A DNA stretch of 44,477 bases, from assembly GCA_025362135.1 (NCBI GenBank), contig JANYHZ010000146.1, positions 1-44,477 of the forward strand, written 5' to 3'. The notes below the pieces were generated by a model that made no database searches, had not been told where the DNA came from, and saw nothing but the letters and a program-made list of their open reading frames with translations. The first letter of the stretch is position 1. The number at the start of each line of letters is the position of its first letter. The translations under genes were made by a program, and so were the position numbers. The DNA is from Betaproteobacteria bacterium. Its GTDB lineage: Bacteria; Pseudomonadota; Gammaproteobacteria; Burkholderiales; Usitatibacteraceae. Below, piece by piece: positions 6,325 to 44,327 of the stretch.

Positions 6325-6469
6325 GTTTGGGAGATGCCCTGAATTCGCAGGTGTATTTGATTTGTAGCGACACGATGGCTGTACTTGGCCACCAGGTTTT
6401 GTAGAGGGCACCTGGCCCAAATCTTTGATGAACCGGTTCAATTAATTCAATATTTTTTTGGAGACAACA

Positions 6470-6805
6470 ATGAAGAAAACAGTCGGTGCCTTTCTGGCGG
6501 GTGTGGTTTTTGTGGTTGGTGCAAGCCCTGCGTTTGCGGATGATTTTCTGCTGCACAACGATACGCATCATGTCTTGAAGATCTTCGTCACGAAAGAAAA
6601 GGGTGGGAAGTGGAGTCCCAACTGGCTTAAGAAAGGCGGCGTCAAACCCGGTGAAACCTGGCATATGGAGTTTGCCAACCCAGGCAAAAATTGTGTTGTG
6701 GCCGTGAACGTCAAGTCGGACGACGGCTACGTGCATGACTACGACGTCAACTTTTGCAAGGCCACTGAAATTTTCATTTTGGACGACTCGATCGAGTACA
6801 AATAA
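6470..6805 (+). CDS. Small secreted protein of unknown function
   Basis: This is a 111-residue protein with a clean signal peptide (residues 1-23, ending SPAFA before DDF). The mature part is about 88 residues, with two cysteines and a beta-rich pattern, including FLLHNDTHHVLKIFVT, PGETWHMEF and a C-terminal DDSIEYK. It resembles the small periplasmic proteins with an N-terminal F-N-T-...-I--L-VS pattern that databases often mislabel as argininosuccinate lyase; this is a memory-based resemblance. I chose ATG 6470, which has GGAG at 6460-6463. It lies 145 bp downstream of the protease and may be cotranscribed. The function is unknown. Confidence 0.75.
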   Translation: MKKTVGAFLAGVVFVVGASPAFADDFLLHNDTHHVLKIFVTKEKGGKWSPNWLKKGGVKPGETWHMEFANPGKNCVVAVNVKSDDGYVHDYDVNFCKATEIFILDDSIEYK

Positions 6806-6947: not shown

Positions 6948-8882
6948 TTACTTGTCACTCAGTGTGAAGGCACCGTCCCAATCTGCTCCAGGTTCGGTGG
7001 CGATGTATTCGCGCACGTAGCCAAGATAGATTTCGGCGATGCGCGCGTATCGGGCAACTGGGGCAAGTTCGGCGAAAATGGCTTCTGCCGTAGCCCACTT
7101 GCGTGCGCGAAATAGCGCCAAAGCGCGATGGTGGCGATCGACCAGGTTGCGCATCTCAAGATCGAGTTGAGCAGCTGGTCCGAGAGGCTGGAAAATGCGT
7201 ACCGCCCTGGTCTTTCCAGAAACCCGTACTTTGTCCAGTTCGAGATAGACGACGTTGCGCGCATTCGCAGCCGTCGTTTCACCGACGATGATGGAGACCT
7301 GGTAACGCTTGGTAAGGCCCTCGAGTCGGGATGCAAGGTTCACGCCGTCTCCCAGAACCGTGTAATTCAGCCTCGTGGGCGAACCAATATTGCCAGCGAC
7401 GACGCGGGCGGTATTTACGCCGATACCAACGTCGGGATTCGGCAAATGTTCCTCCGCCAATTCCCTGGCCAACTGGCGCATGCGCGCGTCGATGGCAAGT
7501 GCGGCGAGTACCGCGCGCTGCGGGTCATCGGAGCGTCCGATTGGCGCGCCAAAAAGTGCCATCACACCGTCGCCGGTGTATTTGTCGATGACCCCATCGT
7601 GCTCATCAACAATCGTATTGATTGAAGTGAGATAGCGATTGAGCAAACCGATGGTTAGGGCCGGGGGTTGATTTTCGCAGAGCGCCGTGAAATTGCGGAT
7701 GTCAGTGAACAACACCGTGACATCGCGCTCCTCGCCGCCTAGCTCGATATTGTGCTTTAGCAACTGCTCGGCGACTTCGTGTGACGCAACCTTGCCAAGA
7801 ATATCCCGCACTTGATCGCGCTCGGTCAGGCCCTTGGACATATTGTTGAAAGCAGTCGCGAGTTCGCCGATTTCGTCATTCTGATGCAACACGATGGGCT
7901 CGCCGTAATTGCCTGCGGCGACCTGCCGAGCCGCGAGTGCGAGCTTGCGAACGGGACGCGTAATACGGCGCGCAATGCGGATGCTGCCAACGAGCGTAAT
8001 GAGCAAGCTCGCGCCGGACAAAAAAATCAACGCCAGCTTCAGGGTTTCGTACGGTTGCAACCCCTCTCGCACGGACCGCTGCAGCACCGCAAACACGCTG
8101 CTGTCGCCGCCATTGTCCCGGTCGCGATCAATGGTGGTGGCGAGTATTTCAAATTCTTCGCCTCCCAGCCGAATTGCCGCGCTCCTCTCATTGCGGGTCG
8201 AGATGCCGGCCGCCTGCTCCTGCAAATTTGTGCGGCTGTCTTGCGTCAATGTTGTTGCAAGAATTGCCGGCGGCCGCTTGTGGTCGCTACCGAGGAATGA
8301 AACGTCCAGGCCAGTGATGCCCTTGAGATCGCGGGCGGTCGAGTCGTCGATTACAAAACCGATCACCACCCACGCAATTGGCACTGGTGCCAGCACGGGA
8401 ACGATGACCAACTGATAGATCGTGCCATCGATGATGCGTATCGCCGAGACAGTGCTTTTCCCTGCGGCTTCATTGATGAGAGCGGGGAATGCAAACGGCT
8501 TGCCGATCAGAGCTGGCTGCACAGTGTCGGCTGCAACAATGTTTGTCATATCGACAAGCGCCAGACGATTGGCTGAAATTCGTGCCCCATGATTTTGAAG
8601 GACGTCAACGATGGTGTCTTTGTCCCAGGTTGCGATTGCGTCACGGAAAGCAAAATCGCGCGTTAACACTGTCGTCGCGGCGACAAGCTGCTGCTCTTTC
8701 TGGTCCAGCAGGCGTTTGAATACGCGCGCGCCGACATTGAGCTCTTCGCGCAGATTGCGTCGCGCGTTTTGTTCGATCGCGTAGCTGATGGCGAAAAACC
8801 CCGCCAGCTGCACGAACATCAACAGTCCGACAAAAAATACAACAATGCGTTTTTCGAGACGCCCGAAATGAAAAAAATTCAT
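6948..8882 (-). CDS. Membrane adenylate/guanylate cyclase with extracytoplasmic sensor and HAMP domain
   Basis: This is a 644-residue class III nucleotide cyclase. Transmembrane helix 1 is at about 13-35. A periplasmic double-Cache-like sensor spans about 36-280, helix 2 about 281-300 and HAMP about 301-355. The cyclase domain (about 385-565) keeps metal-binding Asp394 (LFTDIRNF) and Asp438 (YTGDGVMALFG), Lys434, and the Asn515/Arg519 pair in GDGVNLASRL, so it should be active. Lys434 favours ATP and hence cAMP (inference). A helical tail of about 70 residues follows. Its ATG overlaps the stop of the cupredoxin gene (ATGA), indicating translational coupling: it is the output arm of the globin-cupredoxin operon. 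Confidence 0.92.
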   Translation of the reverse strand: MNFFHFGRLEKRIVVFFVGLLMFVQLAGFFAISYAIEQNARRNLREELNVGARVFKRLLDQKEQQLVAATTVLTRDFAFRDAIATWDKDTIVDVLQNHGARISANRLALVDMTNIVAADTVQPALIGKPFAFPALINEAAGKSTVSAIRIIDGTIYQLVIVPVLAPVPIAWVVIGFVIDDSTARDLKGITGLDVSFLGSDHKRPPAILATTLTQDSRTNLQEQAAGISTRNERSAAIRLGGEEFEILATTIDRDRDNGGDSSVFAVLQRSVREGLQPYETLKLALIFLSGASLLITLVGSIRIARRITRPVRKLALAARQVAAGNYGEPIVLHQNDEIGELATAFNNMSKGLTERDQVRDILGKVASHEVAEQLLKHNIELGGEERDVTVLFTDIRNFTALCENQPPALTIGLLNRYLTSINTIVDEHDGVIDKYTGDGVMALFGAPIGRSDDPQRAVLAALAIDARMRQLARELAEEHLPNPDVGIGVNTARVVAGNIGSPTRLNYTVLGDGVNLASRLEGLTKRYQVSIIVGETTAANARNVVYLELDKVRVSGKTRAVRIFQPLGPAAQLDLEMRNLVDRHHRALALFRARKWATAEAIFAELAPVARYARIAEIYLGYVREYIATEPGADWDGAFTLSDK

Positions 8883-9574
8883 TTCCCAGTGCTGGGCTTG
8901 GGCACGCCAGGATTTTGCGGCTTCAAGTTGAAGGCGAACGTTATGGCAGTCGATTCAACGGCGGATAACTTCAGCTTTTGTCGGGCGGGGGTAGCGGGTG
9001 GCGTTGTTCCCGGGTACCACGCGTGGACCTCATATTCACCAGCGGAGAGGCTGTCAAGTACGGCGATGCCACGTTTGTCTGTTTTGGCAAAAATCGGCGT
9101 ATCGACGACCAGCATATAGGCGATCATCGAGTCGTGAATGTTGCAGCCCAACACGATCTCGCCGGGCATATCAAACAGGATCGGCTTACCGGGTACACCG
9201 GAATAAAGTTTGATTTCAAATGTCTTCGCGGGAGAAAATGAATAGACGTGGTGGCGCACCTTGTCGCGATTCGGAAAATTCACCATCGTCCCGGTTTGAA
9301 TGACACTAACCGGCGGCACAAATTCCTTGTTGATCTGCTCAACGGAGACTTCCCGTTTCGGTCTGGTTGGCGCCACGCCCGAGACAATGTTTGCATACAC
9401 GACTGCATCGACGAGTGGTTGACCGGTGGCGTCGTTTACTTGCGCCGATATTTGCCCGGCAATGCACTGTGCCGTGAAATTCAAAGCAGCGGCGACGAAT
9501 GCAAAGTTGCGAAAGCTGCGTGAAAGCAAGTATGTTTTGTTAGGCATGAAGTTGGATACGTTTGAGAAACCCAT
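8879..9574 (-). CDS. Exported cupredoxin-like protein (methylamine-utilization-protein type)
   Basis: A protein of 231 residues (222 if translation starts at Met10). A signal-peptide-like hydrophobic segment ends near IAG (40). Residues 41-75 resemble a carboxypeptidase regulatory-like beta domain (GQPLVDAVVYA). Residues 90-160 form a cupredoxin-like domain with candidate type-1 copper ligands: His108/109 (VRHHVY), Cys144, His147 and Met150 (CNIHDSM). This protein type is often annotated as methylamine utilization protein, although no methylamine genes are present. It starts five bases after the globin stop and overlaps the cyclase start by 4 bp. It acts in the periplasm; a redox or copper-sensing role for the cyclase is inference. 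Neither candidate start has a clear ribosome binding site. Confidence 0.85.
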   Translation of the reverse strand: MGFSNVSNFMPNKTYLLSRSFRNFAFVAAALNFTAQCIAGQISAQVNDATGQPLVDAVVYANIVSGVAPTRPKREVSVEQINKEFVPPVSVIQTGTMVNFPNRDKVRHHVYSFSPAKTFEIKLYSGVPGKPILFDMPGEIVLGCNIHDSMIAYMLVVDTPIFAKTDKRGIAVLDSLSAGEYEVHAWYPGTTPPATPARQKLKLSAVESTAITFAFNLKPQNPGVPKPSTGK

Positions 9575-9579
9575 CTGGA

Positions 9580-10005
9580 TTATTTGGACACAACATCGCG
9601 TTTCATCGGGGCCAATATCCGCAACAGTTCATTTTTTGCGCTTTCCGATACCCCGGAGCGATTCAACGTGCCGCGCAGGATTTCCACCATTGCAAAAAAC
9701 TCGGCTTCGGTAATGTCGAGCCCCTGATGAACAATTTTCATCGGGTCGCCCGTATATTTGCACGGCCCATCCGTAAGTGCACAAATATGTTCGGCTATTT
9801 TCAGCTTCAGTTTTTTCAGGTCGACCTTATCGAAACTACGTTTGGTCACAGGATCCGAGGCGGTAAGATCAATTGTCTGCTCGACAAACTGTGTGACGCC
9901 TTTTTCGCCACCCAGCCGCTCGTATAATGTCTCCGCAAAAACCGCCGGGCAAGTTGCGATTGTGCAAAAAACAAACAAGCCGATTCGCGAGTTGATTGAA
10001 ATCAT
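9580..10005 (-). CDS. Exported group 1 truncated-hemoglobin-like protein
   Basis: From Met at 10005 the protein has 141 residues, beginning with a signal peptide (about 1-24, ending AVFA before ETLYERLGG). The mature part has the truncated globin pattern: LYERLGGEKGV, then KIAEHICALTDGPC, YTG and MKIVHQGLDITEAEF. The probable proximal heme ligand is His93. The usual B10 Tyr/Phe is not evident (FVEQTIDLTASDP), so the distal pocket looks atypical. A frame extends upstream to 10119, but Met 10005 gives a sensible leader. It is first in the operon globin-cupredoxin-cyclase. Most characterised trHb1 proteins are cytoplasmic, so a leader is notable. Heme-based gas or redox sensing in the periplasm is inference. 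Confidence 0.85.
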   Translation of the reverse strand: MISINSRIGLFVFCTIATCPAVFAETLYERLGGEKGVTQFVEQTIDLTASDPVTKRSFDKVDLKKLKLKIAEHICALTDGPCKYTGDPMKIVHQGLDITEAEFFAMVEILRGTLNRSGVSESAKNELLRILAPMKRDVVSK

Positions 10006-10211
10006 TAGGAGGAATCTCGAAATTAAGATAAAAGTTAACCGCAGCAGGAATTGTTCGGTGACGATAGCACCCTCGATATCGGTTTTCAAGGCCGCGTGAC
10101 TCCGCCCTCCCGTCTCCAATAAATGGCAAAGCCATAATTTGCGTCAGCTTCCCGAGATCGAGTTGAGCCACTTTCGTCGTACTGGCGTTTTCGAAAAACT
10201 GTTTATAAATC
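10006..10211. promoter_or_regulatory. Divergent intergenic region between globin operon and DUF3034 gene
   Basis: These 206 bp separate two divergent starts, so promoters for both directions must lie here or within the upstream end of the longer globin frame. The part nearest the globin gene is AT-rich. A TATAAA at 10204-10209 abuts the plus-strand ATG too closely to be its -10 with a normal leader. I could not define convincing -35/-10 pairs. Confidence 0.4.
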
Positions 10212-11093
10212 ATGTTTAGCGTTCGACATTACTCTTCATTCCCCCTAGTTTCTGGCGCAGTCTTCTGGTGCCTTTGGATCGGCATGACCGGCACAGCGCT
10301 CGCCGGCGAACGGCTGCTGGCGACGGGCGGCGTGAGCCAGATTGAAGGCGCTGCAGGAGGCGGCCTGGTTCCGTGGGCTGTCATCGCGGGTGACGGTACA
10401 CGTGACCAGATTGGCTTCACTGCGTTTCATACCCGTATTGAGATTGATGATTTTCGCCTGCAAAGCAGCGGTGTAGCGGTGGGCTTGCATGACCGTTTGG
10501 AACTCTCCCTCACGCGGCAATTGTTAAGCCTGGGAACGACTGCACCCGGACAATCGATTCGGCAAGACGTTGTCGGTGCCAAGATCAAGCTCGTGGGTGA
10601 CGCGGTCGTTGATCAGGATAGCTGGGTGCCACAAATTGCGGTTGGCCTTCAGTACAAGAGAAATCGCGATATGGCCGTCCCAACAGCGCTGGGCGCGAGG
10701 CATGACACTGGCACTGACTTTTATGTGTCTGCAACCAAGCTTTACCTGGCAGGCTTCGCGGGTAGAAATTTGCTCTTGAATGCCACAGTGCGCGCAACCA
10801 AGGCCAATCAGTTGGGGTTGCTGGGTTTCGGCGGTGACAAGCGTGACCGCTATCGAGCTGAATTTGAAACCTCTGCGGCAGTTTTTCTGACGGATTCCTT
10901 TGCGCTGGGTGCGGAATACCGGTTCAAGCCGGACAATTTGCGGGTTTTCAGAGAAGATAATTGCTACGATTTTTTTGCGGCCTGGTTTGTGAGCAAGCAC
11001 GCGTCGCTGACGATGGCATACACGCGCCTCGGTCAGTTGGCTGACAAGAAGAATCAGAACGGCGTCTACCTTTCATTGCAACTCAGCCCTTGA
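10212..11093 (+). CDS. DUF3034-family outer-membrane beta-barrel candidate
   Basis: This is a 293-residue protein with a leader at about 1-31 (ends GTALA). The mature N-terminus reads GERLLATGGVSQIEGAAGGG, which I recognise as the DUF3034 signature. The rest alternates polar and hydrophobic residues, with many short strands and an aromatic/Leu C-terminus (YLSLQLSP), as in outer-membrane barrels. Its function is not established. It diverges from the globin-cupredoxin-cyclase operon. From memory, DUF3034 genes sit beside such globin and methylamine-type genes in other betaproteobacteria, which supports a shared role. No clear ribosome binding site is seen. Confidence 0.8.
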   Translation: MFSVRHYSSFPLVSGAVFWCLWIGMTGTALAGERLLATGGVSQIEGAAGGGLVPWAVIAGDGTRDQIGFTAFHTRIEIDDFRLQSSGVAVGLHDRLELSLTRQLLSLGTTAPGQSIRQDVVGAKIKLVGDAVVDQDSWVPQIAVGLQYKRNRDMAVPTALGARHDTGTDFYVSATKLYLAGFAGRNLLLNATVRATKANQLGLLGFGGDKRDRYRAEFETSAAVFLTDSFALGAEYRFKPDNLRVFREDNCYDFFAAWFVSKHASLTMAYTRLGQLADKKNQNGVYLSLQLSP

Positions 11094-43821: not shown

Positions 43822-43910
43822 GCTTTTTTTGAATTTTTTATATTATGCCAGTGACCGTGATCACTCATGAAACAGCAGCAACTGAAGTTTTCTCCCAGGG
43901 CCCGCTCGGC

Positions 43911-43916
43911 TACAAT
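43911..43916 (+). promoter_or_regulatory. Candidate -10 box for the trHb gene (possibly leaderless)
   Basis: TACAAT ends six bases before the ATG at 43923, so transcription would begin at or next to the start codon. No clear -35 at 17 bp and no Shine-Dalgarno are seen. Confidence 0.35.
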
Positions 43917-43922
43917 CGCGCC

Positions 43923-44327
43923 ATGCAAATTGATGAACCCCACCATCCACTGACACCGTACGACCTAGCAGGAGGTGAGCCTGCCGTGAGAAAGCTTGTG
44001 AACCGTTTTTACGATCTGATGGATGAAGATCCGGATTATTACGGCATACGCAAATTACATCCGGCCACGCTGGATGGTTCGCGTGAAAAACTATTCAAAT
44101 TTCTCATGGGCTGGTTGGGCGGACCACCGCTTTACGAACAGGAGTTCGGTCATCCGCGTTTGCGGGCGCGGCATCTGCCGTTTGCGATTGCTTCAAACGA
44201 GCGTGACCAGTGGATGACCTGCATGACGCGCGCCATGGCGGACGTGGGGCTGGATGAAAAGCTCAGGAATCGCCTCGTGCAGTCGTTTTTCCAGACGGCG
44301 GACTGGATGCGCAACACCGAAGGCTAA
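43923..44327 (+). CDS. Group II truncated hemoglobin
   Basis: A 134-residue cytoplasmic globin of the trHbII class. Features are B10 Tyr in LVNRFYDLMDED, FLMGWLGGPPLYEQEFGHPRL, proximal His in RARHLPF, and the G8 Trp in DQWMTCM. The family takes part in oxygen/NO chemistry. ATG 43923 matches the family start; an upstream in-frame ATG at 43845 adds 26 residues without similarity. It is divergent from the ArnD-like gene. The following 150 bases to the window end hold no recognisable gene. Confidence 0.93.
   Translation: MQIDEPHHPLTPYDLAGGEPAVRKLVNRFYDLMDEDPDYYGIRKLHPATLDGSREKLFKFLMGWLGGPPLYEQEFGHPRLRARHLPFAIASNERDQWMTCMTRAMADVGLDEKLRNRLVQSFFQTADWMRNTEG

Follow-up and report, generated by a model that had tools for sequence, protein, structure and literature searches.

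A conserved cluster of genes for a DUF3034 protein, an exported truncated globin, a cupredoxin and a Cache-HAMP enzyme: a possible envelope signalling module of Pseudomonadota

This study concerns a divergent cluster of four genes at positions 6948-11093 of a 44,477-nucleotide stretch of DNA from a Betaproteobacteria bacterium (assembly GCA_025362135.1, 86% complete; contig JANYHZ010000146.1), the whole of which is called the window here. As listed in Table 1, a minus-strand operon encodes a globin, a cupredoxin and a class III cyclase with a membrane sensor, and a DUF3034 gene diverges from it on the plus strand. It was found that this grouping belongs to a gene module conserved in Pseudomonadota. 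The globin stop codon (9580) is separated from the cupredoxin start codon by 5 bp, and the end of the cupredoxin gene overlaps with the cyclase start in an ATGA. These junctions, together with the positions and strands of the four genes, had been described in an earlier reading of the letters alone (the sequence-only reading), and they were confirmed by re-reading the sequence and by Pfam. For the globin, the ATG at 10005 is a likelier start than the longer TTG frame reaching 10119.

Table 1. The cluster and its parts in the window
Feature	Position	Strand	Basis
Membrane sensor enzyme, 644 aa; dCache_3 between hydrophobic stretches 9-36 and 279-304, followed by HAMP and a class III nucleotidyl cyclase	6948..8882	-	Pfam, residues, hydropathy, PDB sequence matches to adenylate cyclases
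dCache_3 sensor domain, residues 42-225	8208..8759	-	Pfam; same place by genome search
HAMP domain, residues 302-353	7824..7979	-	Pfam
Class III cyclase catalytic domain, residues 386-559	7206..7727	-	Pfam, genome search, residues
Exported cupredoxin, 231 aa, with CarboxypepD_reg-like segments; His-Cys-His-Met ligands conserved	8879..9574	-	Sequence, model
Exported group 1 truncated globin, 141 aa; F58 (CD1), C75, C82, H93 (F8)	9580..10005	-	
Probable signal peptide of the globin, about 24 residues	9934..10005	-	Sequence, hydropathy rule
Divergent region between globin and DUF3034, 206 bp	10006..10211	no strand	No convincing regulator box
DUF3034 (PF11231), 293 aa, predicted 12-strand outer-membrane barrel with signal peptide	10212..11093	+	Pfam, model

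Is this grouping found elsewhere in the phylum? In a sample of 398 Pseudomonadota genomes, DUF3034 was found in 39, and a globin gene adjoins it in all 39. The globin profile, searched over the same sort of sample of 398 genomes, gave 43 matches of at least 128 bits, the next match standing at 97 bits. Of these 43, 40 adjoin a DUF3034 match and one adjoins a broken DUF3034 (G078:C3); the 41 cases include all 39 positive genomes, two of which hold two copies each. Since the globin is next door in every positive genome, the grouping is not due to chance, and the module is genuine and conserved. Thus, the linkage on which the sequence-only reading had staked its proposal is clearly conserved.

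I then counted partners at 109 DUF3034 loci with their flanks (21 contigs, 87 genome stretches and the window). The loci were picked by DUF3034, so that the counts tell how often the partners accompany it. Within 600 bp, a globin lies at 102 loci; within 5 kb, a cupredoxin lies at 76, a GGDEF-EAL protein at 64, and a class III cyclase (counted only if its match exceeded 100 bits in a strict profile search) at 3. Globin, cupredoxin and sensor enzyme occur together at 66. Locus L049 of Haliea salexigens DSM 19537, for example, carries a cupredoxin, a GGDEF-EAL protein, DUF3034 and a globin. Removal of eight loci at 90% DUF3034 identity left 101 non-redundant loci, where the corresponding numbers are 94, 70, 58, 3 and 60. 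Some of the globin or cupredoxin frames overlap longer frames. The GGDEF-EAL protein of locus L060, which is included in these counts, lies on the opposite strand at a distance of 2.1 kb and is probably unrelated. The seven loci lacking a globin comprise two contig ends (L033, L139), the broken L092, the intact L166, and three loci of a divergent DUF3034 group (L168-L170). In L092 (G078:C3:72191-73313), DUF3034 is fragmented, and the adjoining globin, which was left out of the globin count, is interrupted by a stop codon; both genes seem to have degenerated jointly. The divergent group has DUF3034 matches of 157-165 bits, and a long frame (968-987 aa) is found close by at each of its three loci; five further places of this group (G596, G623, G650, G677 and G703) were left out of the set of loci. 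Three of 13 DUF3034 plasmid records, two from Caballeronia and one from Novosphingobium, were read. On all three, an annotated group 1 truncated hemoglobin adjoins DUF3034, and a protein annotated as 'methylamine utilization' or 'carboxypeptidase regulatory-like' is present. An EAL protein is encoded on two of them, and the third has a short 'cache domain' frame after the copper protein.

The globin of the window matches Bac_globin (PF01152) with 53.9 bits (cut-off 21), and its best PDB match is 8tls (expected value, E, 4e-16); solved group 1 structures were matched. By this family match, the proximal His F8 and the CD1 Phe, it classes as a group 1 truncated haemoglobin that is predicted to bind haem. 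All 94 aligned globins keep His F8, Phe CD1 and a first Cys (window residue C75), and 93 keep a second Cys (C82); the two cysteines could form a disulfide. With the residue register set by equal-length matches to HbN structures, Leu, Val, Ile or Met occupies B10 in 93 of 94, and apolar residues occupy E7 in 93 and E11 in all 94. HbN holds O2 via Tyr B10 and Gln E11, and polar distal residues are typical of group 1, though not obligatory. The 94 globins do not keep this HbN-like polar pair. Since the distal pocket is apolar, O2 may be held weakly, which suggests nitric oxide (NO), CO or a redox change as candidate signals. A hydrophobic export segment was seen in 93 of the 94, at least 35 of which have a lipobox-like end; these calls were made with crude rules rather than SignalP, and the N-terminal signal peptides of the window globin, cupredoxin and DUF3034 protein were recognised by eye. 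A local search also gave three further exported truncated globins with the Cys pair (L206, L207 and L209), which score about 81-83 bits against the module profile. The stretches that carry them have no DUF3034, so both export and the cysteine pair also occur outside the module. The window itself encodes a second globin at 43845-44327 on the plus strand (73 bits to the module profile), without a signal peptide and unrelated to the cluster; by eye, from its motif, it is presumably a group 2 truncated globin.

The second operon gene had been read as a cupredoxin with copper ligands. As a single sequence, it falls below the Pfam cut-offs (Cupredoxin_1, 14.5 bits against 27; CarboxypepD_reg, 26 against 32.3) and has no match among PDB sequences, so the support is weaker than had been implied. 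On the other hand, its profile matches the nitrite reductase NirK (E 0.00016), and its AlphaFold2 model (mean predicted local distance difference test score, pLDDT, 81) finds the cupredoxin domains of NirK, amicyanin and pseudoazurin as best PDB matches in Foldseek, with E of about 1e-6 to 1e-5 and a template modelling (TM) score of 0.3-0.35 relative to the whole query. The type 1 copper ligands His, Cys, His and Met are kept in 70, 69, 69 and 69 of 70 relatives, respectively. Thus, the profile match, the model and the conserved ligands together assign the protein to the type 1 cupredoxins by fold and ligand set, with copper binding predicted. The segments flanking the domain resemble CarboxypepD_reg, mostly below its cut-off.

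DUF3034 gave a Pfam match of 358.4 bits (cut-off 25) covering all 255 positions. Its structure model (mean pLDDT 80.9, predicted TM score 0.79) has 12 strands, preceded by a conserved segment that is modelled at low confidence. In the PDB, the model matches outer-membrane barrels best, the FapF channel (E 7e-8) among them, but at TM scores of only 0.25-0.51 relative to the query. It is therefore a putative barrel without clear kin, predicted to lie in the outer membrane and to carry a signal peptide. When the DUF3034 profile was searched against PDB sequences, a single meaningless match (E 0.012) was obtained. In this way, the sequence-only reading finds support from sequence or model in the export of the globin, the haem and copper ligands, the barrel and the periplasmic Cache sensor described below.

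In the sensor enzyme, all domains are above their Pfam cut-offs: dCache_3 (PF14827) with 45.5 bits (cut-off 25.7), HAMP with 60.1 and Guanylate_cyc with 78.4. Residues D394, D438, K434, T508, N515 and R519 are all kept, and the claim of a class III cyclase with a periplasmic sensor and an intact catalytic site holds. I take D394 and D438 to be the metal-binding Asp pair, N515-R519 the Asn-Arg pair, and K434-T508 the Lys-Thr pair, as in adenylate cyclase. The best sequence matches among solved PDB structures are adenylate cyclases, too; the enzyme looks adenylate-type rather than guanylate-type, and because of this output domain the messenger made at the window locus is probably cyclic AMP (cAMP). 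The source genome has 11 class III cyclase matches and a single dCache_3 match in a profile search. The sequence-only reading had named cAMP or cyclic GMP as the output. The features found here favour cAMP over cyclic GMP, but in the relatives the usual sensor output is GGDEF-EAL, that is, cyclic di-GMP (c-di-GMP), with 58 proteins against three cyclases at the 101 non-redundant loci; the cyclase, carried by a related sensor part, is rare (3 of 109 loci). A motif check found E-x-L in all 58 GGDEF-EAL proteins and an exact GGDEF in only 21, so breakdown of c-di-GMP is the likelier common output of these members.

The dCache_3 domain was also found in seven sensors of other DUF3034 loci that were scanned (L036, L051, L055, L057, L074, L100 and L143) and in L249, a cyclase unlinked to DUF3034. 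HAMP was reported in all nine of these dCache_3 enzymes, counting that of the window, except L057. Locus L040 has a histidine kinase instead, with HAMP and a sub-threshold 4HB_MCP_1 match and without Cache. In a tree of the sensor part alone, the window enzyme clusters with L100 (100/100) inside the GGDEF-EAL sensor set, which includes L143; the L060 protein has by far the longest branch. In a second, quick tree, to which unlinked sensors were added and from which L060 was excluded, the window enzyme, L100 and L249 cluster (92), and L143 is placed elsewhere. Both trees would fit an exchange of output domains on a common sensor, once or twice.

The gene order varies by lineage, while two pairs hold together: DUF3034 with the globin, and the cupredoxin with the sensor enzyme. 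The sensor enzyme has a cupredoxin at 60 of 61 non-redundant loci. At 19 loci found by the sensor, without DUF3034 or globin within about 4.5 kb, a cupredoxin lies directly upstream at 12 and nearby at 2; none was seen at 5, some of which are on short contigs. A small exported protein precedes the cupredoxin at two of the unlinked loci (L262:5096-5596 and L264:5060-5548, plus strand), and the L262 copy is SnoaL-like.

I consider, at a probability of about 55%, that these genes constitute a widespread envelope signalling module of Pseudomonadota, in which a haem and copper sensor spanning the envelope drives a second messenger. This reading draws on the gene linkage, the export signals, the conserved haem and copper ligands, the fold models and the relatedness of the sensor parts. 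I infer the signal, the protein contacts, the direction of flow, the sign of control, and the control of the enzyme by globin and cupredoxin as follows. The outer pair would consist of the DUF3034 outer-membrane barrel and the exported, often lipid-anchored, truncated globin, and the inner pair of the periplasmic type 1 cupredoxin and the inner-membrane dCache_3-HAMP enzyme. The globin haem would meet a small ligand or a redox signal near the barrel, and the state of the cupredoxin would follow that of the haem. The cupredoxin might then act on the Cache domain and, through HAMP, switch the cytoplasmic enzyme.

Several observations weigh against such a module. A DUF3034-globin pair without cupredoxin or sensor within 5 kb occurs as a second copy in the source genome (L053), and the same bare pair is present in five relatives of the genus (L102-L106, some on short contigs). 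The full set with the cyclase was not found in the other five DUF3034-bearing genomes of the genus, several of which are fragmented. Conversely, the cupredoxin-sensor pair occurs without DUF3034 at the sensor-found loci. Two of the 43 strong globin matches (G328 and G154) are in genomes without DUF3034; DUF3034 lacks a globin at four uncut loci (L166 and L168-L170); and no cupredoxin was seen within 5 kb at 33 of the 109 loci. The two sensor trees were built without an outgroup of unrelated Cache proteins and have many weak forks. Thus, of the single joint system that the sequence-only reading had drawn, the belonging together of the genes stands, but the cluster is made of two pairs that are also found apart.

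The two pairs may instead have separate functions, DUF3034 and the globin serving envelope transport, gas handling or detoxification, and the cupredoxin and sensor enzyme forming an independent copper or redox sensor. The latter pair would regulate the former or would just be co-regulated with it, and the globin would be a target rather than an input. The occurrence of each pair without the other is what this explanation predicts, and at two unlinked loci a different outer-membrane protein, Alginate_exp (L250:7803-9197 and L261:7440-8759, plus strand), diverges from the cupredoxin-sensor pair. Since both pairs are present at 60 of the 101 non-redundant loci with DUF3034, which are spread over Alpha-, Beta- and Gammaproteobacteria and differ in gene order, I regard two separate functions as rather doubtful. 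A more far-reaching reading, in which the surface redox, NO or ligand state passes from a porin and the globin to the type 1 copper protein and on to the Cache enzyme and c-di-GMP or cAMP, is quite unlikely; if true, this redox relay would be an electron-reading sensor across both membranes with interchangeable second-messenger outputs. Copper handling, with the cupredoxin binding or delivering copper, Cache reading the metal state, and the globin and barrel engaged in metal or haem traffic, accords with the conserved type 1 ligands, with the nearly constant pairing of cupredoxin and sensor, and with the position of the cupredoxin directly upstream at 12 of the 19 unlinked loci. It is improbable, since a complete His-Cys-His-Met set suits electron transfer better than copper delivery and no copper transporter or haem uptake gene was found among the few flanking genes scanned. 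That the genes are chance neighbours in the source genome, as the absence of the full set from the five genus relatives might hint, is practically negligible against an adjacent globin in 39 of 39 positive genomes and the globin, cupredoxin and sensor together at 60 of 101 loci.

Returning to the envelope signalling module, known systems share parts of its design. A barrel in the outer membrane, a haem and a periplasmic cupredoxin make up the Cyc2-rusticyanin electron path of iron oxidisers. This is an analogy only: the cluster described here has a globin as its haem protein, a barrel predicted to have 12 strands, and a signalling enzyme as partner. YfiBNR of Pseudomonas aeruginosa has an outer-membrane part, a periplasmic regulator and an inner-membrane second-messenger enzyme, and PMC3375315 reports that some of its operons are incomplete and that GGDEF-EAL, HPT or histidine kinases can replace the output domain. 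In contrast, the present module has haem and copper proteins, a barrel rather than a lipoprotein, dCache_3 rather than the YfiN PAS, and a cyclase among its outputs. Neither YfiR nor a PAL/OmpA-type YfiB appeared in the Pfam scan of the four window proteins. As a modular envelope system in which the output domain is also exchanged, YfiBNR is the nearest known principle, with its partners absent here. Globin-coupled sensors such as DgcO likewise tie a globin to second-messenger enzymes, and dCache cyclases and GGDEF-EAL proteins join a periplasmic Cache to a cytoplasmic second-messenger enzyme (accessible part of PMC8846402). The DgcO globin is a domain of the enzyme, whereas here a separate gene encodes an exported truncated globin; to the dCache enzymes, the module adds a constant cupredoxin partner, DUF3034 and the exported globin.

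The accessible part of PMC8846402, a review of c-di-GMP sensing, contains no mention of copper, cupredoxin or truncated. No paper on the module was found among the matches listed in the open-access literature, which leaves most subscription journals outside its scope, and no functional paper on DUF3034 was found there. DUF3034 is mentioned in two of the listed papers, PMC12548924 and PMC4255298; in the accessible part of the former the name seems to be a slip for DUF3037, and that mention was set aside. Nothing leading to the module was found in the accessible parts of PMC1592074, PMC11404848 and PMC6189053, and a search for a Pseudoalteromonas globin locus tag gave no match. The proposal offers a testable role for DUF3034 and for a class of exported truncated globins that almost always adjoins it, and with DUF3034 in 39 of 398 sampled genomes the question reaches beyond one organism. 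If true, haem and copper proteins of the envelope would be linked with c-di-GMP and in a few genomes with cAMP, as a natural exchange of outputs on one kind of sensor. It would point to an undescribed way of reporting outside conditions to the cell interior.

Upstream regulator boxes were sought with FNR, CRP, NsrR-like, NorR, Fur and Cue-like patterns and scored against mononucleotide shuffles. FNR-like matches with at most one mismatch were found in 9 of 263 upstream stretches against 1.3 in the shuffles, a weak excess; NorR at one mismatch was slightly above (28 against 18.3), and the remaining patterns were near the shuffles. The FNR-like match lies near a gene start at only 8 of the 101 loci, three of which belong to the divergent DUF3034 group, and that of the window overlaps with the globin start codon. 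On these grounds, control of the module through such boxes was dropped.

Some neighbouring genes may be recorded. A small protein with a signal peptide and with no Pfam match above cut-off is encoded downstream of the cyclase on the opposite strand (6458-6805, plus strand of the window). Near the DUF3034-globin pair of a genus relative lies a gene for a carotenoid-oxygenase-like (RPE65) protein (L102:4656-6164, minus strand), and a frame in L105 starts similarly. A CHASE3 methyl-accepting chemotaxis protein (L056:4004-5965, minus strand) adjoins the globin at another locus.

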